Source: a virus
Reading direction: 5' to 3' (one strand)
DNA: 64,000 nucleotides
Virus record (IMG/VR): IMGVR_UViG_3300047564_004450
Location: 1-64,000 of that record
Each line of letters opens with the position of its first letter. Position 1 is the first letter of the stretch. Shown in pieces: positions 18,174 through 39,404 of this stretch. The notes beneath the pieces were generated by a model. That model was not told the DNA's origin. It made no database searches and saw only the letters and a program-made list of their open reading frames with translations. The position numbers and the translations under genes are program-made.

Positions 18174-18359
18174 ATGTCTCATATGGATTTGGAAAATTAT
18201 TATAGATTAAATTTTGCCTTAATCCAATTCCATAAATATTCTTTGACTGAAATAGAAAATATGATGCCTTGGGAAAGAGACATCTATGTTATGATGTTAG
18301 AAGAGCATCTTGAAGAAGAAGAATTAAAACGCAAGACAGCAAACAAAAATGGATTCTAA
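18174..18359 (+). CDS. 51: Baseplate hub assembly chaperone, gp51-like
   Basis: A 61-residue protein with the ENMMPWERDIYVMMLEEHL core expected of the small gp51-type hub chaperone, placed right after gene 26 as in T4. T4 gp51 is needed to assemble the hub but is not in the virion. It is shorter than T4 gp51. It overlaps the next gene start by 11 bp. Confidence 0.7.
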   Translation: MSHMDLENYYRLNFALIQFHKYSLTEIENMMPWERDIYVMMLEEHLEEEELKRKTANKNGF

Positions 18360-21300
18360 AAGCCCAGCAACTCAAGTAATAGATCAATATCTTATTGACT
18401 TGCTGGGTCTTCAAGATGAATACGAACTTAATTGGGAAGATTATTTTCGATCATTAAGAGAAGCATCTATTGCTGCTCGCATGAGTGATACAAAATATAC
18501 TTCAGATCAATCTAAATTAATTACGGATGAATTAAAAAGAGTAAAATCTGAAGATAAGTCTACAGTATTTACAACTGGTGTAAAGAAAAAGAAAGTAAAT
18601 AAAACAAAAGTAAACGCATCAAAAGTAACTTCAATAAGTACTTTTGTTCAAAAGCAAAGAAAAAGCCCTGCTGCAAATATAAAGCCAGCACAAAATTTAC
18701 TTCCACCTTCTTTTGAACAGAAAGAACCCCCTCAAAATTTATTACCACAATCAAAAAAAGAAAATATTTCTGCTCCTACTGAAAAAAGGGGAGAAAGGAT
18801 TTCTTTAATAAAATTGTTACAAAGTATTGATAAGACTTTAGGATCAATATTAAAAACTCTTCAAGATGGATTTAAATTTGATCAAAAAAGTTCTGAAGAA
18901 GATAGAAAAGGTAGAGAGAGAGGAAGAAGATCAGAAAGTGAAAAACGATTAGAAGGTGGACTTGGTAAAGGTTTAAAGACAATTATAGGTGCAGCTTCTA
19001 AAGCATTATCTCCACTCCAGGATATATTTGACAGAATTAAAAACTTTATAGTATGGGTTTTGCTTGGAAAAGCATTTAATATGTTTATTAAATGGTTTAG
19101 TGATCCTGCAAACCAAAAAACTTTTAACACAATTGTAAAATTTCTTTCAGATCATTGGCTTCTTTTAGTTGGTTCCTATCTGGCATTCGGAACTTCAATA
19201 GGAAGATTAGTTACTGGTCTTATTGGTAAATTAGCTGGATTTACTATTAAAATGGGCATAGTTATTGCCCAAAAACTCCTTCCATTAATAGGAAAAATGG
19301 GAGGTAAAGGTAAACTTGCTTTACTTGCTGCGGGTGGATTGGCTGTTGCTGGTGCAGCTCGTGCCTTAGGTGGAAATAAAAACACTGAAGTAGATACTCC
19401 AAGCAAGGAAGAAACTGCTCCAATACCAAAACCAGAAACACCCTCTACAAGTGGATATGCTAAAGGTGGATTAATTGGTTCTGAAAAATCTTCTCCTTCT
19501 GAGAAAAAAGTTAAAGAATTTGGACTTCCTATTCCACTTGAACTTTTACTTGGAGGACCAGCATATCTTCCATTCCTTGCAGCTAAAAAAGGTTTAGAAA
19601 ATTTTGATGGCATTAAAGAAGCTGGGTTAAGTGCTACTAAAAAAGCATCTAAATTTAATCCAATATCTTTGTTAGCAAATCAATTCGGTGCGTTTGGGAA
19701 AGATAAAAATCAAAAATCTTCAGTACCTAAATTTGAATCTGGTGGAGTTGTAGGAGAAAGAAATAAAAAATCTTTCCCATTATTAGAAGCTTTAAAATAT
19801 ACACCACTTGGATTAGCATTTCAATCGGGAAAATTTGGTGCAGAAAATTTAGGAAAGGCAGTATCTGGCGGTGCTGGATTAGTAGGTAAGGGTTTAGAAC
19901 TTGGAGGAAAGGCATCTAAAAAAGCACTTGAATTTAGTCCTTTGGGATTACTGCTAAAAGCAGGAAAATTTGGTGCCGAAAATTTGGGCAAAGGTTTAGA
20001 ACTTGGAGGAAAGGCATCTAAAAAAGCACTTGAATTTAGTCCTTTAGGATTAGCATTTAAAGCAGGAAAATTTGGTGCAGAAAATTTAGGGAAGGCAGTA
20101 TCTAGTGCTGCTGGATTGGCAGGTAAAGCATTTTCGGGATTTGGGAAAGTTGCTTCTGGAGCTGGAGATTTAGTAAAAAGTGGAATAAAAAATACTGTAA
20201 AATTATCCACTTTACCATTAACAGTTGGACTATCTGGATTAAAAGGCGCATCGGATATAGTAAAAGGTGGTATTCTTAAAAATCCAAAAATACAATCAGA
20301 ATTAGATAAACTTTCAAAACAAGCAAAAGCAACTGGATTAAATCAAGATCCTAAATTTATTGCTTTAGGTGGAATTGGAGGACTTGCATCAATCATTGCA
20401 GAAAAGTCTGGTCCATTAATTTCACAGCAAGTAAAAAATCAAAATTCCCAGACAAAAACAGGAGGATTTGCTTCTGGTGGCGTGATTGGAACAGACTTGA
20501 CAAATGGAATTCCAATTACTGGCGCTGGAAAAGATAATACTCTCATAAAAGCAAAAACTGGTGATGCAGTTCTTACTGAAAAAGATCAGAGTGTATTATC
20601 AAAAGTAATAAGTGGTGGTGGAATTGGTGCATTTGGTGGACCACTTGGTTCAATGATGGGTGGAGGAATGGGTCTTCTCGGAAATAAGAATAGAGAAGAT
20701 ACTACAATTGCTGTAAGAAAAGGAGAAGCAATTTTAACTCCAGAACATCAAACTTCTATATTTCAAAAATTTGGAGTCAATATTCCAGAATGGTTATCGG
20801 GAAGAAAACCAAATAAAGTTGATTCTGATAAAATAAAAACCAAAACTGGGGTTGGATTTTCCAATGGAGGAATTGTTGGTGGATATGCTTCTGGTGGTAT
20901 AGTTGGTGGAACTTCGGTATTAGATCTTGGAAAAAAAATGTCTGGTGATCCAGATCATAAATTTGATCCAACATTAGCACAGTCAATCCCTCTTCTTTAT
21001 AGAATGCTTCAAAGTGGAAGATTTAAGGAGAAGGGTTGGGGAGATAAAAAATTCATGGATCAATTGACCGCAAGGTTACTTGTGGAATCTAAGAATTTTA
21101 GTAGAGCTAAAGAAATGTACAATTCGGATCCAAGAGATCCGAAAGGAAAGGAAGGTTATCATTATTTTTCTGGTTATTCTGGAATGATTGGAAATAAAAA
21201 TGCAGATGATGCATATAATTTCCGTGGAAGAGGAGCAATACAATTAACTGGAAGAGATAATTATCAGGGATTTAATAAATGGTTAGCAAGAAATGGTCAT

Positions 21301-24111
21301 AAGGGAGTTGATGTAATTAAAAATCCAGATCTTTTATCTAAAGATCCAAAAGTTCAAGCATTATCCACACTATATTATCTTGAAGATAGAGAGAAAACAT
21401 TTGGTGTTAATTTTGCCGATATGGCAAAAAAGGGTGATAGCAAATCATTTACTTACAATATAAATGGTGGATATAATCATCTTGCCGAAACTCAAGATAA
21501 TCTACGAAGAATTCAAGGATTATCTGGTGGTGTAAACTATGGCAAAGGTTTTGCACCAGCAGCACCAAAACCTGCAGCACCAGCACCAAGAAATCCAATA
21601 ATGAACATTGCTTCCAGGGCAATGTCATCTATTGGAAATTTCTTTGCTCCTCCAGCATCTGCAGCACCAAAACCTGCAGCACCAAAACCTGCAGCACCAA
21701 AACCAAAAAGATGGGCAATAGATCCTAGAGGGTGGGTTGGCAAGCAAGGTGGTGGAATCGTTAAAAAGCAAGGTGGTGGCATCGTTAAGAAGCAAGGTGG
21801 TGGATTGTCTTCTGGAAAAACAAAAAATATAATGGAAATATTGAGAGAACTTTATGGAATGAGATCTGATTCCTTAGAAAGGCAGGGAAGAACGAATGAT
21901 GCTTATGGACTGAGAGCATCTAAATTAGAAAATTCAAATAAAAACTTCAACGATAAAATTCTAGATTTTTATAATAAATTTATTTTTAATAGAAATAAAT
22001 CTTTCAACGCAAACAAACCTGTTGCTAAAAATGTTCCAAAGAATAGAGGTCCATTTGGTGCAGATTTGGGATTGAAAATAAATCCAATAAAAACAAATTA
22101 TAATTTTAAACCAAGTCAAAATAAGAACCTTGTAAGTACGGCATTTAATCCAAATGTAAAATTAAATGTTCAGCAACCTAAGAAGCAATCTATATCTGAT
22201 AGTTTAAGGGAACTTCGTGAAATGAGAGCAAGGTCACTTGATAGACAAGGTGACACATTGGGTGCATTGGGAGTAAGAGCATCTAATTATAATTTGCCAA
22301 AAATTGATACAAGTAAGTTAAAAGTAGATCCTAAAAAGGCTTATGGAAGTAATTTAAATCTTTCAACTCCCACACCTTCAGCACCACCTCCTCCATCAAT
22401 AGATTCTGCAACAAACTTGCCGATTAAAACAACTACTGATGCCCCACCTCCACCGATTCAACAGAAAGCTGGTGGTGGAATAATTAAAAAAATTACGTCA
22501 GGGATTGGTGGGTTTTTTCAACAAAATAGAAAGAGAGACATTGCTAGAAAAGCTATTAAAAAAACTACTAGCAAATCTTCAGGTATAAAATCTGGAGTTT
22601 CTACTATTACTGGAAAAAAATCTCCATCAGAAAATCAAAAGAAAGGATTTTGGGGAAATGTTTCCGATACAATATCTGGAATAAATTCTGGAGTAAAAAC
22701 AACAAAAGAATCACTTGAAAAAGGAAAATATTTAAAATCTGCAGCAAATTTTTTTGGAGGAATCCCTAAACGAGTTTCAAATATTGGATCTGGAATAGCA
22801 AAAAATCCAAAAATGATGAAAATTGGTGGGGCATTTGGCAAGTTTGGTGGAAGAATGGTTCCTGGTTTAGGCGTTGCTGCAAGTGCTGCTGATGCTGCGG
22901 CAAGAGCAGAGAGGGGTGATAAATTTGGTGCTGCCTTAGCTGGATTTGGTGCTGCATCTGGAGCAACAACACTTGCAACATCTGGTGCGTCATTGACTGG
23001 AGTTGGTGCTGCAATTCCTGCAATTGCTGAAGCAGCATCTATGGTATCTGATGTAGCATTATTAGGAAAAGATATCTGGGACATTTCTACAGCAAAAGAT
23101 CCAGTAAATAAGAAAAAAGATTCTGATGAAAAAAATAAAAAGCAAACGAGTAGATTATACAAAGATACTCTTACATCTAAGGCTGCTAGAATGCAAGGGG
23201 GTGGATTAGTTAATTTTGGTGGAGGTAGAGTTAATATTGCAAATCCCGAAAAATATTATCAGAATCAATTAGAGTCTATGCTTGGTTCTCAATTTGGAGT
23301 TAATTTAAGTACACCACAATCAAGACCAGATAGCATTCAACCATTCCAGCAATTTGGATCTGGACTTGGATCCTTAGGTGAAAGGGCAAGAAATATATTT
23401 TCACCACTTACTAATTTATTTGGAGGGAGAAGAAATCAAGCATTCCCACAACCACAATCTGCTCCAATAGCACCTACATTACCACAAATGCCACAGGTTG
23501 TTCCTTCTCCCCCAAAGTCAATTCAACCTTCTCCATCAACTTTGTTAGCACCTGTTAAAAAATCCTTGATGCAACAGCAGGCAGATGAACTTCGTGCCAT
23601 GAGAGCAAATTCTTTAGAAAGACAGGGGAGAAGTGCAGATGCTTATGGATTGAAAGCATTTGGAAGTGGAAAGGATTTTTCATCATTTTTTGCGAGGGGA
23701 ATGATAATGGAAAATACTGGTATGAATATGCCAGGAGGAACTGCAGACAGACAACTAACTGCTTTACAACCTGGAGAATATGTAGTTCCTAAAGATACTG
23801 TCGATAGAGTTGGTAAAGGTTTCCTAGATAGTATAGTTGGATCAACAGATTCAAATTCTGCTGCATCTAAAATTGGCGTAAAACCAAATAATGTTGGGAA
23901 TAAAATAAAACCATATACATCTAATGGTGGTGGATTACCATCAATGATTAAATTGCCACCCATCACCGAAAACCTACCCACTCAATCAGTACCAGGAGGA
24001 GCAGTCCAAGGGCAACAAGAAGTTGCATTTAATTCAATTTGTACAAACAAAAGTGCTGCAATTGAAAGAAAACGAATTATGGATACTTTAGGATTCATTA
24101 ATCACATTTAG
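18349..24111 (+). CDS. Giant tail-hub protein with GH19 lysozyme/chitinase-like domain
   Basis: A 1920-residue protein. The N-terminus (to ~190) is charged and helical; residues ~225-345 hold hydrophobic helices. Gly/Ala-Lys repeats follow, including 34-residue tandem units near 515-590. Residues ~870-1050 form a GH19-like hydrolase: candidate catalytic Glu913 in LLVESKNF and the RGRGAIQLTGRDNY motif (959-972). Three copies of a LRE-MRA-SLERQG-DAYGLRA repeat start near 1161, 1281 and 1742. Tape-measure-like PGEYVVPKDTV and KGEAILTPEHQ motifs recur. It probably lies in the tail tube or hub and cuts peptidoglycan on entry. Its N-terminal plan resembles the next protein. Which T4 gene it replaces (29?) is unclear. 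Confidence 0.75.
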   Translation: MDSKSPATQVIDQYLIDLLGLQDEYELNWEDYFRSLREASIAARMSDTKYTSDQSKLITDELKRVKSEDKSTVFTTGVKKKKVNKTKVNASKVTSISTFVQKQRKSPAANIKPAQNLLPPSFEQKEPPQNLLPQSKKENISAPTEKRGERISLIKLLQSIDKTLGSILKTLQDGFKFDQKSSEEDRKGRERGRRSESEKRLEGGLGKGLKTIIGAASKALSPLQDIFDRIKNFIVWVLLGKAFNMFIKWFSDPANQKTFNTIVKFLSDHWLLLVGSYLAFGTSIGRLVTGLIGKLAGFTIKMGIVIAQKLLPLIGKMGGKGKLALLAAGGLAVAGAARALGGNKNTEVDTPSKEETAPIPKPETPSTSGYAKGGLIGSEKSSPSEKKVKEFGLPIPLELLLGGPAYLPFLAAKKGLENFDGIKEAGLSATKKASKFNPISLLANQFGAFGKDKNQKSSVPKFESGGVVGERNKKSFPLLEALKYTPLGLAFQSGKFGAENLGKAVSGGAGLVGKGLELGGKASKKALEFSPLGLLLKAGKFGAENLGKGLELGGKASKKALEFSPLGLAFKAGKFGAENLGKAVSSAAGLAGKAFSGFGKVASGAGDLVKSGIKNTVKLSTLPLTVGLSGLKGASDIVKGGILKNPKIQSELDKLSKQAKATGLNQDPKFIALGGIGGLASIIAEKSGPLISQQVKNQNSQTKTGGFASGGVIGTDLTNGIPITGAGKDNTLIKAKTGDAVLTEKDQSVLSKVISGGGIGAFGGPLGSMMGGGMGLLGNKNREDTTIAVRKGEAILTPEHQTSIFQKFGVNIPEWLSGRKPNKVDSDKIKTKTGVGFSNGGIVGGYASGGIVGGTSVLDLGKKMSGDPDHKFDPTLAQSIPLLYRMLQSGRFKEKGWGDKKFMDQLTARLLVESKNFSRAKEMYNSDPRDPKGKEGYHYFSGYSGMIGNKNADDAYNFRGRGAIQLTGRDNYQGFNKWLARNGHKGVDVIKNPDLLSKDPKVQALSTLYYLEDREKTFGVNFADMAKKGDSKSFTYNINGGYNHLAETQDNLRRIQGLSGGVNYGKGFAPAAPKPAAPAPRNPIMNIASRAMSSIGNFFAPPASAAPKPAAPKPAAPKPKRWAIDPRGWVGKQGGGIVKKQGGGIVKKQGGGLSSGKTKNIMEILRELYGMRSDSLERQGRTNDAYGLRASKLENSNKNFNDKILDFYNKFIFNRNKSFNANKPVAKNVPKNRGPFGADLGLKINPIKTNYNFKPSQNKNLVSTAFNPNVKLNVQQPKKQSISDSLRELREMRARSLDRQGDTLGALGVRASNYNLPKIDTSKLKVDPKKAYGSNLNLSTPTPSAPPPPSIDSATNLPIKTTTDAPPPPIQQKAGGGIIKKITSGIGGFFQQNRKRDIARKAIKKTTSKSSGIKSGVSTITGKKSPSENQKKGFWGNVSDTISGINSGVKTTKESLEKGKYLKSAANFFGGIPKRVSNIGSGIAKNPKMMKIGGAFGKFGGRMVPGLGVAASAADAAARAERGDKFGAALAGFGAASGATTLATSGASLTGVGAAIPAIAEAASMVSDVALLGKDIWDISTAKDPVNKKKDSDEKNKKQTSRLYKDTLTSKAARMQGGGLVNFGGGRVNIANPEKYYQNQLESMLGSQFGVNLSTPQSRPDSIQPFQQFGSGLGSLGERARNIFSPLTNLFGGRRNQAFPQPQSAPIAPTLPQMPQVVPSPPKSIQPSPSTLLAPVKKSLMQQQADELRAMRANSLERQGRSADAYGLKAFGSGKDFSSFFARGMIMENTGMNMPGGTADRQLTALQPGEYVVPKDTVDRVGKGFLDSIVGSTDSNSAASKIGVKPNNVGNKIKPYTSNGGGLPSMIKLPPITENLPTQSVPGGAVQGQQEVAFNSICTNKSAAIERKRIMDTLGFINHI
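19891..20094 (+). repeat. Two tandem near-identical 102-bp units inside the giant hub gene
   Basis: The segments starting at 19891 and 19993 are almost identical over about 85 bp and encode a 34-residue unit (LELGGKASKKALEFSPLGL, then KAGKFGAENLGKG). A partial third unit starts upstream, near 19790. Likely to vary in copy number. Confidence 0.75.
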
Positions 24112-24129: not shown

Positions 24130-27100
24130 ATGGCTGCAGGAGCTTTAGTAAAAATAACTGGCACAGCAATAAAATCTTCCAAGTTTTTGGGAAAAAACAC
24201 AGTTAAAAATACTGGCGCAATTACTACAGCTCAAAAAACAAAAAAAATTCCGACCGAAAATTCTTCTAAATTGACAAAGAGAAATATTTCTCAGGGGTTT
24301 GATTTTGCTAGTGGAGTTTATGATGCTTTTAAAAAGAAAGAAGAAGCACCCCAAAAAACTTCTTCCAGTAATGATATTTTAAAAATTGTACAATCGATCG
24401 AAAAAAAAGTAATTAAAATTGATTTATTATTGAAAAATAAATTAGAATTTTTCAAAAAAAATCAATCCAAAAAAAGAACGGATGCTGAAAGGGAAAGATT
24501 TAAATCGCAAGAAGAAAAATTAGAATCCCCCAAAAAGTTTGATGTAAAAGAAAATCTCTCTAAATCTTTACCAAAAACTTCACTTTTTGATATAGTAAAG
24601 AGATTTATTTTCTTCACTACATTGGGTTGGTTATATGATAAAATTATTCCATTAGTTCCCGCACTTATAAAAACTTTTGGCAAGATTATGCAAGTAGCAT
24701 ATTTTGCCATGGAAGTCTTTGGCGGACTGGCAAATATTTTAACTAAATTTGTAGCTGGTGGAATAAGGTTAGTTAATGGTTTAACAAAAACATTAGCAGT
24801 AATATCGGGAGCAAGAACTGATAAAGAAATTCAAGACTTTGAGAAGAAATTTAATAGGATGATTGATCTTACCATATTGGCAGCAATGCTTGCTGGTGAT
24901 ATGGGATTTGATATTTTTGATTTTCTTAAAAAAGGCAACAAAGGAAAAGGAGGTGCTCAAGCAGCGAGAGGGGCAAAGGGTGTTCTTAAGGGAGGAGTCG
25001 GTAGATCAATAAAAAGAATAGCAATAAAACTAGGAGGAAAGGGAGGAGGAAAAGTTGCTCAAAGGTTAACAAAAGGCGTTTCATCTTTTGCAAATAAAGC
25101 AACTGGAGGAATTTTTGCCAGGGGTGGTGGAAGAGCACTTACGAGACTTGCGATAAAGGTAGGTGGAAAAGGTGGTGGGCAATTTGTAAAGGGAGCTGGA
25201 AAGTTTTTAGGTAAAGCTGCTGGACCAATTGCTGCTGTAGCAATGGCAGCATGGGATTTTACCAGCAGAAAAGCATCTGGACAAAGTAATTTACAAGCTG
25301 GAGTTGGAACTGCTGCTGGAGTTGGTGGAGCACTTGCTGGTGCCAAAGGTGGGGCAGTCGTTGGAGCAGCAATAGGAAGTATTATTCCAGGTCTTGGAAC
25401 TGTTTTAGGTGGTATAATAGGCGGGGCAATAGGTGCTGGTGCAGGTGCATGGGCAGCAAGTGGTATTGCAGATAAAGCTACTGGGGCAAATAAAGCAGTT
25501 CCAAAGGAACCAACAATTCCAAATGCTGGATACAGTCTTGGTGGAATAATTAGAAAGTATGAGAACGGTGGAGTTATAAGACCGACAAGACAAAAACCAC
25601 AAGAAACACAAGTAGGAAAAGATGTTGGTGGTTATAATGAAATATCAAAACTTTTCCCAGATCCAACTGGAGCAGGGAAAGGTACTGGGGGAGGAAGTAC
25701 TGAAGGTATTAAATCAAACAATCAAATGGTTTGGTGGAATCCTTTTACTTGGGGAAGTAAAGAACAACCTCAACAAACACAAGAATCTGAGCCAACTATA
25801 GATGGACCATCTGGTGGTGCTTTAAAATCATTAAAAGATACTTCATCTACTTTCAAAAAAATTCCATTTGTAGGTGAATTGATGGGCATCTCAGTTGATA
25901 TTGCGATGGGACAAAAACCAGACAAATCTTTTTATTCAAGAATTTCTAAAGGACTTGTTTTTCTAGCTCAAAAATTATCAACTACAAAATCTTTGAATCT
26001 TGTTTCAGATGTGGGTGGAGAAGTTCAGAGATTGGCAACAGGTGGAATTGCAGAAACTGTAAATCAAGATTTTACAAACATAAGATTTACTGAAAAGTCT
26101 GTAGAGGAAGTTTCAGATACTTTGTCAGTTATAATGGAAAAGGGTGCAAATGATGCATTAACTGATATTAGAAAAGAAATTTTAAGATCAAAAATTTCTA
26201 TTTCTAAAAAAAGTGTTGATGACTCTAGAGGTGGAAGTAGTGGTGGAGGAAGTGATCCAAATTTTGGTGGAGGTGCTGAAGTAACACCTGGAGATGATTC
26301 TGGTGGTAATTACGATGATACTCCCCATGGACAACCTGGAGGAGCTCCTGTAAAAACAACATCTGGATTTAATGGCGGCAAAGGAAATAAAAGTAGAAAA
26401 ATATTTTTACATTGGACCGCAGGATCGTATTCTACTCCATTTAGTAATTATCACACTACATTTTTGGGGGATGGTCGTGCTGTTAGATACACACCTTATG
26501 GTGAAGATAAGGGAACGCATACTGGAGGAGGAAATACAAATTCGGTAGGTCTTTCTATTGCTGCAATGGGTGGAGAAGGGACGGGCCCAAATAATTTTGG
26601 AAAGTACCCCCCAACATCTGCCCAAGTAAGTGCTATGGCACTTGAAGCAGCAAGATTAGCAGTTGCTTGGGGATGGGACGAATCTACAATTGATTCTAAT
26701 GTAAGAACTCATGGAGAATGGGAAAGATTTGGAACTAGTACTGGAATTCTTTCTGGAAAACCACAGAGATGGGATTTAGATAAACTTCAACAATCTGACC
26801 AAAACAATAGTGGAGGAAATAAACTCCGCAAGATGATAAAAGGATACTTTAAACAATTAAAGAAAGGATCATCCACAGATTCTTCTACTGGAACTACTAA
26901 AGTAACCTCAAGCGGTGCTACTTTACGAGAGATGTCTTTAGCATCGGCGACAGAAGTTGTTGGTGATATTAAATCTGGAGCTGGAGCTGGATCTAGAGGT
27001 GTTGAAGTATCTGGTGGTGGAGCAGATTTTTGGGCTCTTGCTGCTATTGCTTCTCTTGAAAATGGAAATCCTCAAGGACAAGCAGATGTTGCTCAGTCAA

Positions 27101-30100
27101 TTTATAACAGATTATTATCAAAATTAAATTTTGGGCAATCTTCTAATACTATTAAAGGACATATTATAGCACCAAAACAGTATTCACCTGTTCATGAAAG
27201 TAACCCAGCATTATGGGCAGCAATTGTTGATAAAGAAAGTGCTATAAAAGCCGTAGAGTCTCATAAAAATGGTAAAGGAAGAGGTAAAAAAATAGTAGAA
27301 GAAGCATCTAAAAATATAAAGAATCCAGGATTGCAGCAATCTGCAAAAGAATTTATTGGTGGAAGAACAGATTTTTGGGCAACAAGTATTGGTATGCCCT
27401 CTTCTGGACATAGTTTTATAGTAAGACATGGACACAGATTTGGTTATTTTGCTGGACCAGCTGCGATAGCATACGGAAGAAAAAATCCACCAGTTGCTGA
27501 GGTTCCATCTCTTGGAGTAAATGTAACTATAAAACCAGGAAAACCCCAAAAACCCGAATCCAACGCTGATGCAGGTGATAAATCAAATAAACCTTCTGGA
27601 CCTAAAACATTTCCACTTCCTAAGGGAAGGGTAGGAACTGATTCTGGGCAAGTATGGGGAGCACCAAGATCTTATGGACCACATGCTGGAGTTGATGTTG
27701 TTGAAAATCCACCTTATGGTGATCCTAAAATACCAGTAGTTGCATATAGATCTGGAAAAGTAATTAATTCTACCCCAGATTATCCATATCAAAGGTCTGG
27801 ATATACATCAAACTTATCGATTGATCATGGAGGTGGATTAAAAGTAACATACTTGCACATGACACCTGGATTAAAACCAGGAGATACAGTCCAATCGGGT
27901 CAAAAACTTGGTAAGTTGATACCACTGGGATCCGCTCCTGATTTTATGCAAACTCATTTGCATTTCCAAGCATATCAAGATAACAAATTAATAAATCCAA
28001 CTAATATTTTAAAATCTGCATTCCATGGTAGTTTTGTTTCCAAGGAAGGAACTTATCAACTTCATGAAGGTGAGTTTGTCGTAGATAAAGATAGTGTTAA
28101 TCTTTTGGGAATTGATTTTTTTAAATCCCTTAACTCAATTGAAAATAAAATTTCTCTAAATAAAATCGCTCCAGATTTAATCTCAAGGATACAAGAAACA
28201 ACAAGAGGAGGAGCATATTTAAGTCAGCATTATCCAGATGAAAAACATGCAGAAGAAATTGATTCTTCCAATCCAAGTTCATCAAAAGAAACATCGTCAA
28301 ATCTTGAGTTAGCTATCAAAAATGAAGAATCAAAGGCAGAAAAAGAAGATGAGAAGGAAGATGAAAAAGAAGATGATAAGAAGCAAAGAGTAAAAGTAAT
28401 CCCAGCAAGTCACCCCCAAACGGGAAGAGGATTTGCAATCAAAGGAGTTACTGATGGTAATGGAAGACCTTTAATTCTTTCTAAGGGTGGAATAAAAGCA
28501 TTTGGTGAAATGATGCAGGACTCAAAAGGTGCTGTAAAGGGATCTGACGTTGCAAGTGGAAAAAGAAGTGTTGCTCATAATAGGAAAGTTGGTGGAGTTC
28601 CAAATTCAAATCATCTTGGAGGGAACGCTTTAGATATTCATGGAACATCAGAACCATGGATGAGAAGACATGGAAAGACATATGGTTGGATAGTTAATGA
28701 TTACCCAGGATCTCATGGAGGTCACTTTGATTATAAAGGTGATGATAAAGATTCTGGGGGAGATACTTTAGCAACAATGTCTTCAGACTCTACAATTGAT
28801 TCTGTAACTGATTACAGTACGTCTCCTTCTCGGGGAGGCGGAAGTGGTGGTGGAGGGGGAGGTGGTGCCCCTTCTGGTGGTGGAGGGGGAGGTGGTGCCC
28901 CTCCTGGGAATGATCCAGTAGACATTGAAGCAGAGCCAACTGAGACATTGATACCTGGAAAACCATCAAAATCAAAACCAGGATCAAAAGGTGAAGAAGA
29001 TTTAACTTTAGATATACTTGGAAGTTATGAAGGTCTTAGACTTGAAGCATATCCAGATGCAATTTATGGATGGGGGGTTCCGACAATTGGATTTGGTGCT
29101 ACAAAAATAAATGGAAGACCAGTAAAGGCAGGGGATAAAATTACAAAAGAGCAAGCATATGCATTGAAAAAACATGATATGGAAAGGCATAAAGATAGAG
29201 TTGTTCAACAATTGGGCAAAGAATCTTTAGATAAACTTCCAGCACATGTTAGAATTCCTCTTATGTCAATAGCATTTAATTATGGAAGCCTTCCATCTGG
29301 TGTTTCTGAAAGAGTTAAATCTGGATTGGCTAAAGGAGATTACACTGAACTCGCTGATTATATTGAAAATAGATTGGGACGCCATGATAAGGGAATTAAT
29401 CAATGGAGAAGAAGTGACGAAGCAAAAATTATAAGAACTGGAAAAAGTGGCAGGTTGCAAGGATTTGATGCAAGTCCAAATGCAATAGCAAAACTTGAAA
29501 GAGATGAAAAATCAAAGGATGGAGAAAGACCCACAGAAGCTGGTGGAGATCCTGGTGACATTGAAAAGGATCAGCAGATTGCAGGATCAACAAAGGATAA
29601 AAGATATGGAAGATTAGGAGTTCCAAATACCGATGGTCAAGATACTGGTGCTGACCTTGAATTGTTTGGAAGAAGAGGTGAAATTGGAAAAAGCTTTGGC
29701 GATAATGATAAGAGTGGGCCATATGGAAATAGAGGTGTAGAAATTTCTTTCCCATATGAATTGGTCTACTTAGATAAAATTCCAGGAGGAAGAAATGCTG
29801 GAAGGAAATCTATAGATGTTGATGGCACTCAAAGAAGAGTTTATAAAGGTGCAGAAGGTTCTGCTGGATTTGGAAATGTTGGATCTTATTTTTATAAGGA
29901 CCCAAGAACTGGAAAAATGTTTGAAGTTATGATGGGACATGGAAATAAACCATTTAAGAAATTTAAAAATGGTGAAAAAATCCCAGCAGGAACAGTTGTT
30001 GGATGGCAGGGTGCTTCTGGATCTAGTGACAGTATGCAGGGTGGTGTCTATGATCACGTATCTTTCCATGTTAATGCAGTTGATGGTGGTGATCCTGGTC

Positions 30101-30588
30101 CAATTTTTGACAAGTTTGTTAATTCTTTATTAGGTGGTGAAGGTGCAAGAATAACTGCAAGAAGAAGGGAAGAGAAAAAAGCACAAGCAGAAATTGCAAA
30201 GAAAAAAGCAAAAGAAGAAAAGAAAAGTCCTATTGCTAAAGCACAAAAGGCAGGAGGAAATCTTGTTTCTAGCATTGCTTCATCGGTTTCATCTTTCTTC
30301 GGATTTGGAAATAAATCCAAAAAACCATCTGCAGCAAAACCATCGGGCAAACCAAAAATTGTAAAGGCGCAGGGTGGTGGTCAAATAGGATCATCTAATA
30401 TTAAAGAAAAGCAAATAAATAAATTTGCAGACTATGAAAATCCATTTGAATCTGGAACAGTATATTATCAAGAAAAGATTAAATATATTACAGTCCCACA
30501 GCAGAATACTTCTAGAGGGCAAATGAAAGTATCATCAGGAGCAAAACCTGAACAAACAGACAACTCTTATAATTTAAGAAGACAGTAA
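24130..30588 (+). CDS. Giant tail protein with multiple peptidoglycan-hydrolase domains
   Basis: A 2152-residue protein. After an N-terminal helical part come a glycine-zipper hydrophobic stretch (~390-445) and at least five enzyme domains. Amidase_2 (~740-890): His761 in FLHWTAG, His861, Asp882. SleB-type hydrolase (~960-1120): Glu977 and APKQYSP. M23 peptidase (~1160-1295): His1185-x3-Asp1189 and His1276-Leu-His1278. M15 peptidase (~1420-1540): SNHLGGNALDIHG and His1532. GH24 lysozyme (~1625-1785): Glu1634 and Asp1643 in T4 lysozyme spacing, Thr1652. A second M23-like domain (~1820-1990) keeps HVSFHV but lost the first His. Clearly tail-associated by position before gene 27; it would open the cell wall at infection, glycan and peptide bonds alike. 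Confidence 0.8.
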   Translation: MAAGALVKITGTAIKSSKFLGKNTVKNTGAITTAQKTKKIPTENSSKLTKRNISQGFDFASGVYDAFKKKEEAPQKTSSSNDILKIVQSIEKKVIKIDLLLKNKLEFFKKNQSKKRTDAERERFKSQEEKLESPKKFDVKENLSKSLPKTSLFDIVKRFIFFTTLGWLYDKIIPLVPALIKTFGKIMQVAYFAMEVFGGLANILTKFVAGGIRLVNGLTKTLAVISGARTDKEIQDFEKKFNRMIDLTILAAMLAGDMGFDIFDFLKKGNKGKGGAQAARGAKGVLKGGVGRSIKRIAIKLGGKGGGKVAQRLTKGVSSFANKATGGIFARGGGRALTRLAIKVGGKGGGQFVKGAGKFLGKAAGPIAAVAMAAWDFTSRKASGQSNLQAGVGTAAGVGGALAGAKGGAVVGAAIGSIIPGLGTVLGGIIGGAIGAGAGAWAASGIADKATGANKAVPKEPTIPNAGYSLGGIIRKYENGGVIRPTRQKPQETQVGKDVGGYNEISKLFPDPTGAGKGTGGGSTEGIKSNNQMVWWNPFTWGSKEQPQQTQESEPTIDGPSGGALKSLKDTSSTFKKIPFVGELMGISVDIAMGQKPDKSFYSRISKGLVFLAQKLSTTKSLNLVSDVGGEVQRLATGGIAETVNQDFTNIRFTEKSVEEVSDTLSVIMEKGANDALTDIRKEILRSKISISKKSVDDSRGGSSGGGSDPNFGGGAEVTPGDDSGGNYDDTPHGQPGGAPVKTTSGFNGGKGNKSRKIFLHWTAGSYSTPFSNYHTTFLGDGRAVRYTPYGEDKGTHTGGGNTNSVGLSIAAMGGEGTGPNNFGKYPPTSAQVSAMALEAARLAVAWGWDESTIDSNVRTHGEWERFGTSTGILSGKPQRWDLDKLQQSDQNNSGGNKLRKMIKGYFKQLKKGSSTDSSTGTTKVTSSGATLREMSLASATEVVGDIKSGAGAGSRGVEVSGGGADFWALAAIASLENGNPQGQADVAQSIYNRLLSKLNFGQSSNTIKGHIIAPKQYSPVHESNPALWAAIVDKESAIKAVESHKNGKGRGKKIVEEASKNIKNPGLQQSAKEFIGGRTDFWATSIGMPSSGHSFIVRHGHRFGYFAGPAAIAYGRKNPPVAEVPSLGVNVTIKPGKPQKPESNADAGDKSNKPSGPKTFPLPKGRVGTDSGQVWGAPRSYGPHAGVDVVENPPYGDPKIPVVAYRSGKVINSTPDYPYQRSGYTSNLSIDHGGGLKVTYLHMTPGLKPGDTVQSGQKLGKLIPLGSAPDFMQTHLHFQAYQDNKLINPTNILKSAFHGSFVSKEGTYQLHEGEFVVDKDSVNLLGIDFFKSLNSIENKISLNKIAPDLISRIQETTRGGAYLSQHYPDEKHAEEIDSSNPSSSKETSSNLELAIKNEESKAEKEDEKEDEKEDDKKQRVKVIPASHPQTGRGFAIKGVTDGNGRPLILSKGGIKAFGEMMQDSKGAVKGSDVASGKRSVAHNRKVGGVPNSNHLGGNALDIHGTSEPWMRRHGKTYGWIVNDYPGSHGGHFDYKGDDKDSGGDTLATMSSDSTIDSVTDYSTSPSRGGGSGGGGGGGAPSGGGGGGGAPPGNDPVDIEAEPTETLIPGKPSKSKPGSKGEEDLTLDILGSYEGLRLEAYPDAIYGWGVPTIGFGATKINGRPVKAGDKITKEQAYALKKHDMERHKDRVVQQLGKESLDKLPAHVRIPLMSIAFNYGSLPSGVSERVKSGLAKGDYTELADYIENRLGRHDKGINQWRRSDEAKIIRTGKSGRLQGFDASPNAIAKLERDEKSKDGERPTEAGGDPGDIEKDQQIAGSTKDKRYGRLGVPNTDGQDTGADLELFGRRGEIGKSFGDNDKSGPYGNRGVEISFPYELVYLDKIPGGRNAGRKSIDVDGTQRRVYKGAEGSAGFGNVGSYFYKDPRTGKMFEVMMGHGNKPFKKFKNGEKIPAGTVVGWQGASGSSDSMQGGVYDHVSFHVNAVDGGDPGPIFDKFVNSLLGGEGARITARRREEKKAQAEIAKKKAKEEKKSPIAKAQKAGGNLVSSIASSVSSFFGFGNKSKKPSAAKPSGKPKIVKAQGGGQIGSSNIKEKQINKFADYENPFESGTVYYQEKIKYITVPQQNTSRGQMKVSSGAKPEQTDNSYNLRRQ

Positions 30589-30589
30589 A

Positions 30590-31930
30590 ATGGGAGTAAA
30601 TGCAGCTGCTCAGGGTGGAGAATGTCAAATAGATGTATTTGATATAACTTCAAATTATTCTGGAAAAAGTGTAGACATTAGAGAAGGAGTAATTTCCTTA
30701 GCAATATATGAAAGTTTGCTTGATAGCACAGTTAGAGTTAATGTAGCATATATTGATACTGGTTATGGTGGGGGGAAGGCATTAAGTGAATCTGGATTCA
30801 ATAACAGTGTTGGGGAAAAAACTGAACTTGTAGTAAGGCAATTTTTAGATGGTAAAATTATAAAATTAATTTTTAAAGGTGACTATCAATTAAGAACTTC
30901 TAATAATTCTAGAGAAGCCATGAATGGTGGAAGTACAACTATGACTTCTGTTAATACATGGTTTTATTCAAAAGAATCTATGGATAATCATTTAATTGAT
31001 AAAAGAGTTGTAAAAAAATATGAACGAAAAATATCTGATAATGTATTTACGATTCTGAAAGATGTATTAGGAACAAAAAAATCAATATACACAGATGCGT
31101 CAAAAAATGATTTTAATTTTTTAGGTGGGAATGAAAAGCCATTTCATAAAGTAACTTGGTTATGTAAAAGAACTGTCCCTGAAGGAATTGGAGGGCAAGG
31201 AATATTGGCGGGATATTTATTTTATGAAATTGCTAATGATAATGTTCGTAATGCTGGAGGATATTATTTTAAATCCGTAGACATATTATTTTCTCAGGCT
31301 CCAGTGAAGAAATTTATTTTATCAAATACGAATGAAATTCCTAATGGATATGATGCAAAAATTATCAATCACGTAGAGAAAACAAGTATAGATTTAGATG
31401 ATCATTTAGTTTCTGGATCTTTATTTAAACGTAATTTAGAAACTTTTGAACCTTTTAAGAACAAATATTCAAAGGATGATTTCGATTACAAGGCACAAAA
31501 TCTTATAGTTAATAATGGTGGTAAAGAATTTTGGAAAATTGCAACTGATATAAATTTCCAAAATAATGTTACAAGATATTCTAGTAAAATGTTTGATACT
31601 GGAACTTTGCCAACGGGAAGGACTTGGGGGGAACAGAAAAAAGAATCCAAAGAAATTAATTTCGACATGGATGAAATATTGAGGCAGTCAACAAATAGAT
31701 ATAATCAATTAGGAACGATAAGATTAGATATAACTATAGCAATAGATTTGACTTTACATGTGGGAGATATGATTTTTTGCGATTTCCCAGAAATTGGGGA
31801 TTCAAAAACACAAAGGCCAAGTAAGAATAAAAGTGGACTATATATGATAATGGATCTTTGTCATAGAATTACAGATAAGGGATCGTGGACGGGTTTGCAT
31901 TTAGTTAGAGATACAATTTACAGAAAATAG
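30590..31930 (+). CDS. 27: Baseplate hub subunit, gp27-like
   Basis: A 446-residue protein placed one base after the multi-hydrolase gene. The front half (CQIDVFDITSNYSGKSVDIREG, then YESLLDSTVRVNVAY) and the C-terminal RLDITIAIDLTLHVGDMIFCDF plus SGLYMIMDLCHRI segments are typical of gp27/hub proteins that form the torus under the tail tube. Position before gene 5 supports this. T4 gp27 is 391 residues; this one is a little longer. Confidence 0.8.
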   Translation: MGVNAAAQGGECQIDVFDITSNYSGKSVDIREGVISLAIYESLLDSTVRVNVAYIDTGYGGGKALSESGFNNSVGEKTELVVRQFLDGKIIKLIFKGDYQLRTSNNSREAMNGGSTTMTSVNTWFYSKESMDNHLIDKRVVKKYERKISDNVFTILKDVLGTKKSIYTDASKNDFNFLGGNEKPFHKVTWLCKRTVPEGIGGQGILAGYLFYEIANDNVRNAGGYYFKSVDILFSQAPVKKFILSNTNEIPNGYDAKIINHVEKTSIDLDDHLVSGSLFKRNLETFEPFKNKYSKDDFDYKAQNLIVNNGGKEFWKIATDINFQNNVTRYSSKMFDTGTLPTGRTWGEQKKESKEINFDMDEILRQSTNRYNQLGTIRLDITIAIDLTLHVGDMIFCDFPEIGDSKTQRPSKNKSGLYMIMDLCHRITDKGSWTGLHLVRDTIYRK

Positions 31931-32166: not shown

Positions 32167-35100
32167 ATGTCAGGACAAGGAACTTTATTTAATTCCGATT
32201 CAAGTGGAGTGAATTTGACTTACATGTGGTTTGGTCAAATAGTTGACGAATCTACATGGGTTGAGAATCTTGCTAGAGAAGATGGAAAACATAGCCTTAG
32301 ATCTAGAGATGATTTTCAAGGTTATGGATATAGGTATAAAGTAAGAATTTTTGGTAGAGATTTGGAGGATAAAGAAAAAGGAACTCCAGATGAAGAGCTT
32401 TATATGGCAGAAGTCTCACTTCCAGTAACTGCTGGAAGTGGTCATGGGGGGTCTGTCCAAACTCCAAATTTAAGACAAGGAAATTATGTATTTGGTTTTT
32501 ACAAAGATGGTGTAGAAGCAACAGAGCCCATTATATTTGGATTGCTGCCAAATCATGCACAGACAAGACTTTTTGGTGGAGATCCAGATAAAGGATTTTT
32601 CTCAAGAACTGGATTTGTTGGAAGAAATGGATCCGATGATGTTGCCACTAAAAATTTATTAGGAGAAGGTCCAGACGCGGGAGTTCCTTTTAGTGAATCT
32701 GCTGGAGGAAATTATGTATTGGATGTTAGAGATATTGACATTTTAAAAGAACAACGAACTCATTATCTTCCAAAAACATATGCATGTGATGCAAAATCGG
32801 GAGGTGCTCTTTCTGCAATTCAAAAAGTTATAAAGGATGTTCAGGCACTTATTAATAAGATAAAAGCAGCTGCAGATACTTTTGCTGGAGCAGTTTCTGA
32901 TGTAATAAATGGCATCAATTCACTTATCGAAGATGTCGCATTATTAGTAACTGATCTCATGAAAGGCATTATTGATAAAATGAGAGGATTTGCAGAAAAT
33001 ATTCTCAATAAAACTTTAATTTTAATCCAAGCAAATCTTCCCCCAAACTTAACACCAGCAGCTAATGAAGGTGCTCAAGTAGTTGTTGATATCTTAGCAT
33101 GTGTTTTTAATAAGATAATTAAAGGTCTTTTGGGTGCAGTATTTAAACTCTTAAATGGTCTTCTTGGCAAGGCCATGGATACCGCACAATGTTTAATTGA
33201 GTCATTTATGGGAAGTTTATTGGGCGGAATATTGGGCCCAATAGCAAATGCTCTTTCTCAAATAGGTGATGTTTTGGGATCTATTTTGGGGGGCCTTAGT
33301 GGAATAATGAGTGGAATATTTAATGCACTGAGTTCGATTTTGGGAATCATTGCATTTTTGACTTGTGATGAAGATGCTGATTGTAGTGCTGGAGATGGTT
33401 GGAGTTTTTGGTATGGTGATTCATCTAGTAATATTAGCATACCAAATCTAAGTAACATAATACAATTAAACGCATTTAGTGGTGGAGTAACTGGTGGTGT
33501 ATCAGCATGTCTTGCAAACTCCAAAAAACCAAAGAAAGCAAAACCACCAAAAGTTAAGTTTATAGGTGGTGGTGGAATTGGTGCGATTGGAAATCCAATT
33601 ATTAGCCCACAGGGAGAAATATTGGGAGTAGATATTATTGATGGGGGAACAGGATATACATCATCACCAACTGTAGTATTAAGTGATGATGGTCCTGGAA
33701 GTGGAACCGTTTTATATGCAAGATTAGAGAATGATAATACGTTTTTTGGAGGAACTGGTGGAGAAACTAGTAGAAATCCAGATTCTGCAAATACACAAAC
33801 AGAACCTACTGTAAGGGATGTTCCTTTAAAGATAAATTCAAAATCAACCCTGCCAACTTTTACAGTAAATCCAATTTCACCTCCATCTGGAGCAACTCCT
33901 TTAGGGACTGGAGAACCTTTAACATATTCAAATGTCCCAGTAAATGTTGGGGGAAATGGCGGAACTCCTATTACCGTTGGGGGATCTGGGGGAAATCCAT
34001 TAACATATAATCAAAGACCTGTGACTGATGGAGGAACTGGGTTTTCATTATTTGTAGGTGGTGATGGAACTCCAGTCATTACAAATGCTGGACCTTTAGT
34101 TCTCGGTGGAACTGGAGGAACACCAGTTAATGTTGGAGGTAATGGAGGATCTCAACTTCAAGGACTGACAAACAATCAAAATATAATAGCAAGTGTAGAT
34201 ATACCATTATTTGAAGGCGTAGAAAATATTGTTATTTTGCAAGGTCCATATACTGGAGAATTTAATGGAAGAGGCACATATGAAAATGGATCTTTCAAAG
34301 GCAATGGAACATTAAATGGAAAAACTAATTTGGGTCAAGATTTTAGTTTAGGTGGATCCTTTAGTGGATTCGATACTTTATTAGTTGGTTCTGGTCAAGG
34401 TTCTTTCAAAGGAACTGGTCAGGTTATAAACAGTAGATTTGTTGGTGAGGGAATATTTACTGCCGACGTAAAAAATATCTCAAATTTGTTAAATAATTCT
34501 CCAAATTCTGAAGATCAATTTGGAAAAAATATTACTACATTGCCAAATGGAACTAAAATTGAATCTAATCCAGATGGAACTGGGTCAATAACAACACCAA
34601 ATGGAAATATAACAGCAGTATCATTTGTAAAAATTGGAGCCACCTCTGGATCTCCAGTCACTGTAAATGGGGTTCCCGTCATTTTAAATGGAGAACTCGC
34701 CACAGTCGGTGGAAATGGCGGAACTATACTTAGAGTAGATTTACAATGCACTGGCAATTTAGCAACTTCTGGGGGATATCCTGTACAAGTTGCTGGAATA
34801 AATGTCTGTAGTGGAAATTCTGGAATACCTTTAGTCGCAGGAGCAAATTCTTTAAATTCTCCTGCAGTCGCAAATGGAGTCCCATTAAATTCTAATGCGG
34901 GCGTAATAAGATCAGCAGAAGATTTGGGATCATCTGCTGGTGGAGTAAGTGTTCCAGGAACTTTTTCTGGTCCAGATGGTTCTCCGATCCAGGAAGTTGT
35001 TGTTATAGATCCTGGAGTTGGTTATTTGCCAGCACCAGATGGATCCATTTATGCCGATGGGGTTAAGTTTTCAAATCCAGAAGATACAATAATATTCGAT

Positions 35101-35706
35101 GAAAATAGTGGATATAGTGTTTATCCACCAAATACTACAATTCCTGTTCTTGTTGGAAATGTGGCATATTTACCAACAGGAACACTTGCTGGAGTATATG
35201 ATAATGAAGGCAATGAACTTCAATCATTAACTGGATTTGGACAAGAAACGGGGATAACAATCCAAAACAATGGACTGATAACTACACCAAATACAAATAT
35301 AGTTGATTTAAGTAATCAAATCACTAATCCATCTTCTAGTGATGGATCTTATCCTGTCGTTTTGATATTAAATGATGTTTTAATAGCAAATCCTGGAATT
35401 AATTATTCAGCAAATGATAAAATTGAATTGCAACCAAATTCTGGTTCTATATTAGAACCGAAATATGATAAGTTTGGAAGACTTGAATCGGTAAATATTG
35501 TAAATCCAGGAATAGGATTTACAAGTGTACCTAAAATCTTTATTAGATCCAATACTGGAATTAATGCAGTTATTAAGCCAATATTTGGAGTTAAGAGAAT
35601 TGGTAATGATCTAAATGAATTAACTGACGAAAGAATTGGAACAGATCCCAATGTGTCTTTGATCCAAATTATAGATTGTGTAGGAAAAATTTCTAGGAGA
35701 CCTTAA
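32167..35706 (+). CDS. 5: Baseplate hub gp5-like protein: OB domain with long repeat tail
   Basis: A 1179-residue protein. Residues ~15-180 match the gp5/VgrG OB-fold domain that plugs the hub (MWFGQIVDE, YRYKVRIFGRD, AEVSLPVTAGSGHGG, GNYVFGFY). No lysozyme domain follows, unlike T4 gp5. Residues ~215-400 are hydrophobic helices (GLLGKAMDTAQCLIESFMG and onward). Then come Gly-rich GGxGGTPxxVGG repeats (~585-680), MORN-like strands (YTGEFNGRGTYENGSF) and DGGTGYTSSP-type beta modules to the end. The spike that T4 gp5 has at its C-terminus is the separate next gene, which overlaps by one base. Confidence 0.78.
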   Translation: MSGQGTLFNSDSSGVNLTYMWFGQIVDESTWVENLAREDGKHSLRSRDDFQGYGYRYKVRIFGRDLEDKEKGTPDEELYMAEVSLPVTAGSGHGGSVQTPNLRQGNYVFGFYKDGVEATEPIIFGLLPNHAQTRLFGGDPDKGFFSRTGFVGRNGSDDVATKNLLGEGPDAGVPFSESAGGNYVLDVRDIDILKEQRTHYLPKTYACDAKSGGALSAIQKVIKDVQALINKIKAAADTFAGAVSDVINGINSLIEDVALLVTDLMKGIIDKMRGFAENILNKTLILIQANLPPNLTPAANEGAQVVVDILACVFNKIIKGLLGAVFKLLNGLLGKAMDTAQCLIESFMGSLLGGILGPIANALSQIGDVLGSILGGLSGIMSGIFNALSSILGIIAFLTCDEDADCSAGDGWSFWYGDSSSNISIPNLSNIIQLNAFSGGVTGGVSACLANSKKPKKAKPPKVKFIGGGGIGAIGNPIISPQGEILGVDIIDGGTGYTSSPTVVLSDDGPGSGTVLYARLENDNTFFGGTGGETSRNPDSANTQTEPTVRDVPLKINSKSTLPTFTVNPISPPSGATPLGTGEPLTYSNVPVNVGGNGGTPITVGGSGGNPLTYNQRPVTDGGTGFSLFVGGDGTPVITNAGPLVLGGTGGTPVNVGGNGGSQLQGLTNNQNIIASVDIPLFEGVENIVILQGPYTGEFNGRGTYENGSFKGNGTLNGKTNLGQDFSLGGSFSGFDTLLVGSGQGSFKGTGQVINSRFVGEGIFTADVKNISNLLNNSPNSEDQFGKNITTLPNGTKIESNPDGTGSITTPNGNITAVSFVKIGATSGSPVTVNGVPVILNGELATVGGNGGTILRVDLQCTGNLATSGGYPVQVAGINVCSGNSGIPLVAGANSLNSPAVANGVPLNSNAGVIRSAEDLGSSAGGVSVPGTFSGPDGSPIQEVVVIDPGVGYLPAPDGSIYADGVKFSNPEDTIIFDENSGYSVYPPNTTIPVLVGNVAYLPTGTLAGVYDNEGNELQSLTGFGQETGITIQNNGLITTPNTNIVDLSNQITNPSSSDGSYPVVLILNDVLIANPGINYSANDKIELQPNSGSILEPKYDKFGRLESVNIVNPGIGFTSVPKIFIRSNTGINAVIKPIFGVKRIGNDLNELTDERIGTDPNVSLIQIIDCVGKISRRP

Positions 35707-36386: not shown

Positions 36387-37205
36387 ATGGCATACGCAGT
36401 AGACGATATTACAGCATCCCATCAATTGAATGTGGGAGCTGGATATCCCCCAGCTTTATTGTTGGGACCAGCAAGAATTAGAGGTTCTAGTTTTATTGAG
36501 GGTCCGTCTGTATTTGGAAATCCTTTTATTTGGCCAAATGTTTGGGCAACTGTAATGATTGGTCCAAATACAAATTTAGATTCTCCACCTACTTTTGCCC
36601 CAGGTGCTTTATGTTGGGGTGGACCAGCATTGAATAATCCATATTCTTTAGCAACTATTGGAAATTCTGGTTTTTTTGGCAACGTTGATGTAGCTGGAAA
36701 TGTTTGTGCTGGATTTAATATAGTAGCACAGGGAGAAGTTGTTTCTAGGTGCGGTGCTCACATTCTATCGTTGAAAAAGAATTTTGATATTAAACATCCA
36801 ACAAAAAATGGATGGAGATTGAGACATACTTGCCCAGAAGGTCCAAGTAATGATGTTTATATTAGAGGAAAAGTTGCAAGTAAAGATTACATTGAATTAC
36901 CAGAATATTGGAGGGGGTTAGTTGATCACACAACAATCACTGTAAATTTGACTCCAATCGGTGCCCATCAAGATGTAATCGTAAAAAGAATCGATGAGAA
37001 TAAAGTGTATCTTCAATCAAAAGGAGGTATGCCAATCAATTGCTTCTATCACATTTATGGTGAAAGAAAAGATGGTGATAAATTAATCCCCGAATATAAA
37101 GGATTTAATCCCCAAGATTATCCAGGAGACAATACAGAATATTCTATTGTTGGATGGAATTACGACCAACGTGAAGATCAAACAACTAATCTTAAGAGGG
37201 CATAA
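36387..37205 (+). CDS. Virion protein sharing a C-terminal domain with its neighbour
   Basis: A 272-residue protein. Residues ~1-120 are a Gly/Pro/Ala-rich N-terminal domain. The rest is a module common in cyanophage fibres: KNFDIKHPTKNGWRLRH, then DVYIRGKV, LPEYWRGLVD, VNLTPIGAHQDV and INCFYHIYGERKD. The next gene carries the same module. Likely a spike-tip or short-fibre protein attached to the baseplate; no enzyme motif. Confidence 0.7.
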   Translation: MAYAVDDITASHQLNVGAGYPPALLLGPARIRGSSFIEGPSVFGNPFIWPNVWATVMIGPNTNLDSPPTFAPGALCWGGPALNNPYSLATIGNSGFFGNVDVAGNVCAGFNIVAQGEVVSRCGAHILSLKKNFDIKHPTKNGWRLRHTCPEGPSNDVYIRGKVASKDYIELPEYWRGLVDHTTITVNLTPIGAHQDVIVKRIDENKVYLQSKGGMPINCFYHIYGERKDGDKLIPEYKGFNPQDYPGDNTEYSIVGWNYDQREDQTTNLKRA

Positions 37206-37207
37206 TT

Positions 37208-37870
37208 ATGGCTGGAACAAATATGACTCCAAGAACGGTTGCAAAACCGAACTGCAGACCAAAACAAATATGGGCAATACCATATGGAAGTTTTATAAGA
37301 CCTCTACTTCCATATACGGGGGATGACAATAGAAGTTTTGATGTTTTCAATGGGTGCCAATTATATTATCATGATAGAGTTTTCGTTAATGATTTGAGAT
37401 GGACTGATGGATGTGGTGGGACATTATCATCAAGATCTTGCGTTTGGAATGCTAAAAAAAGTTTTGATATTCCCCATCCAACAAGAGATGGGCATAGATT
37501 AAGGCATGTATGTTTAGAAGGTCCAGATGCTGATGTTTATATTAAAGGAAAATTGGCAGAAGGAAATGTTATTAAACTTCCCGACTATTGGCCAAAATTA
37601 GTTAATTTAGATACTATAAATGTTACTTTAACACCGATTGGTGTATATCAAGAATTATTTGTTGAAGCAGTCCAATGGGGAACAAGAGTAATTGTTAAAA
37701 ATAATTTGGGCGGACCAATAAATTGTTACTATCAAATTATGGCAGAACGAATTGATGTTGAGAAAAATATTTCAGAATATGAGGGGTTGACGCCAATGGC
37801 ATATCCAGGAGATAATAGTGGTAGTACTATTAATGAAGGTCTGATATTTGATGGAGAATACAATTCATGA
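37208..37870 (+). CDS. Virion protein, paralogue of the preceding one
   Basis: A 220-residue protein with the same C-terminal module (KSFDIPHPTRDGHRLRH, DVYIKGKL, LPDYWPKLVN, VTLTPIGVYQELFV, INCYYQIMAERID) but an unrelated Cys-containing N-terminal part. The pair looks like a duplication in which the N-terminal domain diverged or was swapped. The end overlaps the next gene by 20 bp. Confidence 0.7.
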   Translation: MAGTNMTPRTVAKPNCRPKQIWAIPYGSFIRPLLPYTGDDNRSFDVFNGCQLYYHDRVFVNDLRWTDGCGGTLSSRSCVWNAKKSFDIPHPTRDGHRLRHVCLEGPDADVYIKGKLAEGNVIKLPDYWPKLVNLDTINVTLTPIGVYQELFVEAVQWGTRVIVKNNLGGPINCYYQIMAERIDVEKNISEYEGLTPMAYPGDNSGSTINEGLIFDGEYNS

Positions 37871-39339: not shown

Positions 39340-39344
39340 GGGGC

Positions 39345-39373
39345 TTGACGACGGGCAAGGGGTGTAGTACAAT
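39345..39373 (+). promoter_or_regulatory. Sigma-70-like promoter
   Basis: TTGACG (39345-39350), 17 bp, TACAAT (39368-39373). Faces away from the glycosyltransferase-like gene and would start about 25 bases before the next gene. Confidence 0.65.
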
Positions 39374-39404
39374 ATGTAGGTACTCAACTGACGGACCCCC
39401 CTCA

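Follow-up and report, generated by a model that had tools for sequence, protein, structure and literature searches.

The tail gene block and its paired scaffold genes

The virus record IMGVR_UViG_3300047564_004450 of IMG/VR is 66,660 bases long, and its first 64,000 nucleotides (positions 1 to 64,000, hereafter the window) contain a gene, here called gene B, whose product carries several predicted cell wall-cutting domains. The record harbors T4-like gp32, gp53, gp48, gp4 and gp26 genes as well as tRNAs. Gene B is an intact open reading frame (ORF) of 2152 amino acids on the plus strand, with its ATG at 24130 and its stop at 30588, exactly the coordinates given in the initial annotation, which had been made from the sequence alone. 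It is preceded by gene A (18349-24111), encoding a 1920-residue paralogous partner scaffold, and is followed by gene C (30590-31930), encoding a tail protein in the position of gp27 (phrog_350; T4-GC 15 in P-SSM2 and Syn33), and by a gene for a gp5-like hub protein of 1179 amino acids (32167-35706; phrog_1922, E 3e-67). All of these genes and the domains described below lie on the plus strand. The original description of a multi-enzyme protein encoded within the tail-hub gene block, immediately upstream of the gp27-position gene, thus holds.

We surveyed gene order in 80 loci anchored on gene C, in further loci and in annotated phages. The order gp26, gp51, A, B, C and then gp5 was found across the surveyed loci and the annotated phages examined, with the exception of S-CRM01, and 104 adjacent A-B pairs were counted among the loci examined. 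Gene B of the window occupies the same place in this block. In S-CRM01 the interval from gp51 to gene C contains just one annotated member of the pair, which indicates that the pair can be reduced. A scan of genome contigs for relatives of gene C returned none.

Apart from being adjacent and upstream of the phrog_350 gene, A and B have an N-terminal scaffold domain in common, which in B spans residues 89-227 (24394-24810) and is homologous to the corresponding domain of A (BLASTP E 1e-7; hhalign 99.1%, E 1.4e-18). An AlphaFold2 model of the B scaffold consists of long helices at low global confidence (pTM 0.25), and a Foldseek search of this model against the PDB gave no match. Gene A additionally carries repeated tape-measure-like PGEYV motifs and a GH19/chitinase-type lysin domain (residues 906-1070; 21064-21558) that matches PHROG endolysin and chitinase families (E 9e-18 and 3e-17); this domain is below the Pfam threshold in the window and above it in orthologs. 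It had not been reported in the initial annotation.

Five predicted peptidoglycan hydrolases in B

The initial annotation had listed five hydrolase domains and a degenerate sixth in B. At least three of them are backed by profile searches, since four exceed the Pfam cut-offs (Amidase_2, 26.0 bits; M23, 28.7; M15_3, 23.2; Phage_lysozyme, 22.3) and the SleB-type domain, although below the Hydrolase_2 cut-off of 27 bits, is recognized by a profile of its homologs. The Amidase_2 domain (residues 748-907; 26371-26850) scores 26.3 bits over residues 753-862, and its zinc ligands H761, H861 and D882 are intact and conserved in 25 homologs from the same gene slot; the homolog profile matches only peptidoglycan-recognition proteins, and these weakly (E 0.005). 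The SleB-type domain (residues 966-1105; 27025-27444) has the predicted catalytic glutamate at E977, and its profile of 19 homologs, 14 of which contain a Hydrolase_2 match, finds the SleB structure 4f55 (E 1.8e-9). The M23 endopeptidase domain (residues 1161-1295; 27610-28014) reaches 54.4 bits over residues 1184-1290, with H1185, D1189, H1243, H1276 and H1278 intact (conservation 6/6).

A region with FHG and EGEFVV motifs (residues 1295-1360; 28012-28209) comes next, is retained in relatives between swapped lysins and resembles a motif in A. It is followed by the M15 peptidase domain (residues 1426-1537; 28405-28740), which scores 29.5 bits over residues 1474-1507, has a homolog profile matching the PDB entry 1lbu (E 7.7e-6) and keeps the conserved metal ligands H1495, D1502 and H1532. 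The GH24 lysozyme domain (residues 1629-1775; 29014-29454) scores 51.6 bits over residues 1632-1745 and matches the lysozyme structure 6et6 (E 2e-11); the catalytic residues E1634, D1643 and T1652 are present, the first two forming the Glu-x8-Asp spacing noted earlier. Judged from the sequence, the metal ligands and key catalytic residues of the five enzymes are therefore intact, with the general base of M15 excepted.

A maintained M23-like domain with a non-canonical site

The sixth domain of B (residues 1801-2010; 29530-30159) was not detected in the Pfam scan, and the HxxxD and HxH zinc ligands of an M23 peptidase are incomplete in it. More is altered than the first His, whose loss had been proposed: Asp1838 occupies that position, and Ser1978 replaces the second His of the HxH motif. 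The description as a degenerate enzyme, however, does not hold, as the altered site is a property of a whole family. A domain with the same H..S.H.N signature was found in 47 loci, in most cases in a short B (~570 amino acids) that has no other recognized enzyme-like domain. Five residues do not vary across the 47 homologs (His1937, His1976, His1980, Asn1982 and Gln1960), and at position 1978 all homologs except one, which has Thr, have Ser. The first His is replaced by a residue of the Asp, Gln or Glu type in nearly all aligned rows and is retained only in one locus (L020), and the aligned Asp is often Asn. Given that the altered site is common to 47 loci and that dN/dS (the ratio of nonsynonymous to synonymous divergence) is 0.06 against the copy in a sister phage (L004), the domain is, on these sequence measures, under strong purifying selection and represents a maintained family, neither debris nor a relic peculiar to B.

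Two observations speak for a relation to M23: a small profile of five sequences matches M23 structures (6yj1, E 3.3e-6), and the L020 copy matches Pfam M23 below threshold. A 22-sequence profile found no M23 structure at 0.01, and an AlphaFold2 model built from five sequences was poor (pLDDT 47). The safest reading of these data is that of a maintained non-canonical domain, which may be a binder or a different enzyme.

Exchange of modules between phages

Comparison with two sister phages (L003 and L004) reveals that the enzyme modules of B are exchanged on a scaffold that stays. The amidase and M15 blocks of the window are 91-95% identical to those of L003, with a scaffold identity of about 50%, and identity with L004 is 87-94% in the M15 and M23-like blocks; the remaining module slots are unrelated, having been replaced. 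For the modules kept in the sisters, identity and synonymous divergence (dS) amount to 91% and 0.51 for the amidase, 95% and 0.49 for M15, and 94% and 0.59 for the M23-like domain. As dS is about 0.5-0.7 for the modules in common but exceeds 1 for the scaffold, the divergence of the scaffold appears to predate the movement of the modules, which most likely moved afterwards. The three modules with close relatives, the M23-like domain included, have dN/dS values of 0.06-0.11.

Other common enzyme sets are Amidase_2 with SleB (17 B proteins), M23, GLUC with M15, and GH24, and the GLUC, SleB, GH24 and M15 types are found in A of some phages and in B of others. A census of detected domains per B gave six for the window, three for each of the two sisters and zero to two for all others, counts that are biased toward the window because the census seeds were mainly taken from it. 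Gene B of the window is hence not an isolated oddity, as sister phages also have multi-lysin B proteins with different enzymes. It is extreme in its number of modules, although perhaps not the sole such case, given that the sisters show more domains by eye. These comprise GH104-like, M15-like and NlpC/P60-like motifs in L003 and L004, and a YkuD-like or L,D-transpeptidase-like HN..GCVG motif in L012; they are leads only, as none had a credible Pfam match and neither of the two compared with the PDB was significant.

Absence of a detectable lysozyme in gp5

The Pfam Phage_lysozyme domain was detected in none of nine cyanophage gp5 proteins, that of the window included, whereas T4 gp5 as a positive control scored 48.5 bits. 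A trace of Gp5_OB is retained in most of the nine, and several of the eight others are annotated as tail lysozymes despite having no detectable lysozyme domain. Since lysozyme is absent from all nine in the profile search, lysin function appears to have moved from gp5 to A and B.

Virion evidence and proposed function

Orthologs of A and B have been detected in purified virions. In the S-CREM2 virion proteome, ORF208 (A) and ORF209 (B) are represented by 73 and 71 unique peptides, counts comparable to those of hub and baseplate proteins (PMC10665884), and ORF213 and ORF214, the A-B orthologs of S-SCSM1, were likewise detected in virions (PMC9602691). The gene C ortholog (T4-GC 15) was detected in the S-SM1 virion (PMC3037559). 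In S-CREM2, a GH19 domain is found in A and a GH24 domain in B. The common N-terminal domain is weakly preserved in this A (E 2e-6), and this B, which did not match the hidden Markov model of this domain, was assigned by position and lysin content.

We contend that B is probably a protein of the virion tail hub or tube interior, and that it forms together with its paralog A a scaffold bearing swappable peptidoglycan hydrolases for entry. This proposal builds on the domains and residues observed here, the homology and synteny of A and B, the swapping of modules and the lack of a detectable gp5 lysozyme. The tail-hub placement of the initial annotation is sustained in terms of gene position, the hub itself being inferred from that position and from the proteomes of distant orthologs; action at entry and the activity of each module are likewise predicted. 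A and B would most likely be located in the tail hub or at the end of the tube, and once the tail has contracted their modules could attack glycan, amide and peptide bonds at the site of puncture: GH24 and SleB would cleave the glycan strands, Amidase_2 the stem-peptide amide, and M23 and M15 the peptide part, with GH19 supplied by A to the same spot. This set would replace the single gp5 lysozyme of T4. Modules would be exchanged between phages by recombination at linkers while the scaffold stays, and the window phage and its close relatives would have accumulated an unusually large set, a cocktail that may confer speed or an ability to cope with differing host walls. The earlier statement that the phage could open any wall chemistry is an unsupported overclaim, the host being most likely a cyanobacterium.

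A broader version, to which we give an even chance, is that the gp5 lysozyme was replaced in T4-like cyanophages by a dedicated two-protein rack of the paralogs A and B whose modules are interchangeable, even from one paralog to the other. In this version the ancestral B may have borne only the conserved M23-like domain with its non-canonical site, and the window would present the system at its largest.

Several points weigh against the proposal of an entry scaffold. The hub location of B is positional, and hhalign comparisons of A, B and C with single sequences of T4 gp29, gp28 and gp27 gave nothing, including the comparison of gene C with gp27 and that of the A and B N-terminal profiles with the gp29 tape measure, a weak test with one sequence. 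The Amidase_2 score is marginal, the Hydrolase_2/SleB match (residues 982-1049) reaches only 20.9 bits, and for M15 there is no obvious general base, His1529 occupying the candidate position, where Asp might presumably be expected. So large a number of globular domains would also have to fit into or leave a tail tube, for which the proposal offers no account. The S-CREM2 and S-SCSM1 papers refer to both proteins as endolysins or lytic enzymes, and the S-SCSM1 authors allow for carry-over after CsCl purification and for a role in release (PMC10665884, PMC9602691).

Alternative explanations

A and B might mainly act as tape measures, their length following that of the tail, with the lysins as passengers. 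Glycine-rich stretches, the PGEYV motifs and PHROG tape-measure matches speak for such a role, as does the correlation of A and B lengths (r 0.94 in 78 distinct complete pairs; r 0.88 without the four largest), although the loci are related and the points not independent. Reported tails also follow the trend, with 418 nm for S-CREM2 (A and B of 1565 and 1456 residues, one Pfam lysin domain each), 138 nm for S-N03 (933 and 722) and 129 nm for S-H34 (936 and 735). Yet three tail lengths do not amount to a test, the loci are related by descent, and about 900 of the 2152 residues of the window B belong to globular domains. We consider it improbable as the main role; it is compatible with the proposed entry scaffold and does not exclude it.

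It is also quite improbable that A and B are endolysins that release progeny late in infection and reach virions by carry-over, although both are labelled endolysins or lytic proteins in public annotation and in the S-CREM2 and S-SCSM1 papers. In nearly all loci both genes lie in the baseplate gene block, directly upstream of the gp27-position gene, their products have a long-helix scaffold domain in common, and the S-CREM2 peptide counts are at the level of hub and baseplate proteins. Endolysins are normally much smaller, and A and B would be very large for this class.

That B is merely a mosaic assembled by illegitimate recombination, with several lysin domains that have lost their function, is very improbable, for although its strong mosaicism, its non-canonical sixth domain, two weak Pfam scores and the lack of close relatives for GH24, M23 and SleB (so that recent loss of function there is possible) would suit such an origin, the metal ligands are intact, dN/dS is low in all three modules with close relatives, the non-canonical one among them, and the altered M23-like site is common to 47 loci.

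Comparison with known systems and significance

The T4 gp5 tail lysozyme resembles B as a hub-associated wall-cutting enzyme of the GH24 fold with a role in entry, which for B is a prediction. In T4, an OB fold, one lysozyme and a beta-helix spike are combined in one protein, whereas the window phage has five predicted enzymes on a separate large protein without gp5 OB or spike domains, and a gp5 without a detectable lysozyme. The S-CREM2 ORF208/209 and S-SCSM1 ORF213/214 pairs occupy the same A-B position and are virion-detected; the S-CREM2 proteins have one Pfam lysin domain each, compared with five enzymes on the window B, and the S-SCSM1 paper names one activity per protein. Neither paper, in the text available, describes them as a paralogous scaffold pair (PMC10665884, PMC9602691). 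Mycobacteriophage TM4 (PMC1796659) and the enterococcal TMP-LT (PMC10194240) likewise have a tail-interior protein with a peptidoglycan hydrolase that aids entry, but these are of another phage group and have a single lytic activity, and in the enterococcal survey tape-measure proteins carried lytic transglycosylases only (PMC10194240). The enterococcal NLPC/P60 and M23 virion lysins combine two different wall-cutting domains in one protein and are multi-enzyme like B, but with two domains compared with five and on a different scaffold (PMC10194240).

A literal search of open-licence papers found no description of the full enzyme set on a single phage protein, in agreement with the initial annotation. 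Virion-associated lysins themselves are already known; new are the paired-scaffold pattern and the extreme number of modules. Cyanophages are among the most abundant viruses in the ocean, and there are few descriptions of how they breach the wall of cyanobacteria. Our analysis assigns the likely machinery to two genes that mostly carry the annotation "hypothetical protein" or "endolysin", and suggests that the "tail lysozyme" annotation of gp5 is wrong for cyanophages. The natural series of phages with one scaffold and differing enzyme sets could be used to test wall-cutting chemistry against host range and entry, and it is a potential source of co-evolved multi-enzyme wall-cutting proteins.

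Phage identity, host and neighboring features

From its gene content, the phage is a T4-like cyanophage, and it is distant from sequenced isolates given that the closest match of gene C, in Synechococcus phage B23, is only 44% identical. Adjacent psbA-like (39-905) and psbD-like (1150-2211) genes are found in the window, with a mutual identity of 35% that fits psbA followed by psbD; the former is probably truncated by the start of the record. As phage-borne genes of the psbA/psbD type, they indicate that the host is most likely a cyanobacterium. Assembly fusion as the origin of gene B was considered and rejected because a near-identical gene, differing at 2 of 6459 nucleotides, is present in a second IMG/VR contig (L002; 10 differences over 26.4 kb), an argument limited by the possibility that both contigs are assemblies closely related to each other.

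Two further features lie downstream. The neighboring genes at 36387-37205 and 37208-37870 belong to the same PHROG families (17490 and 28536), an apparent tandem duplication, and a minus-strand ORF of 300 amino acids (38503-39405; phrog_13607, function unassigned) lies within the plus-strand block and adjoins six tRNA genes.

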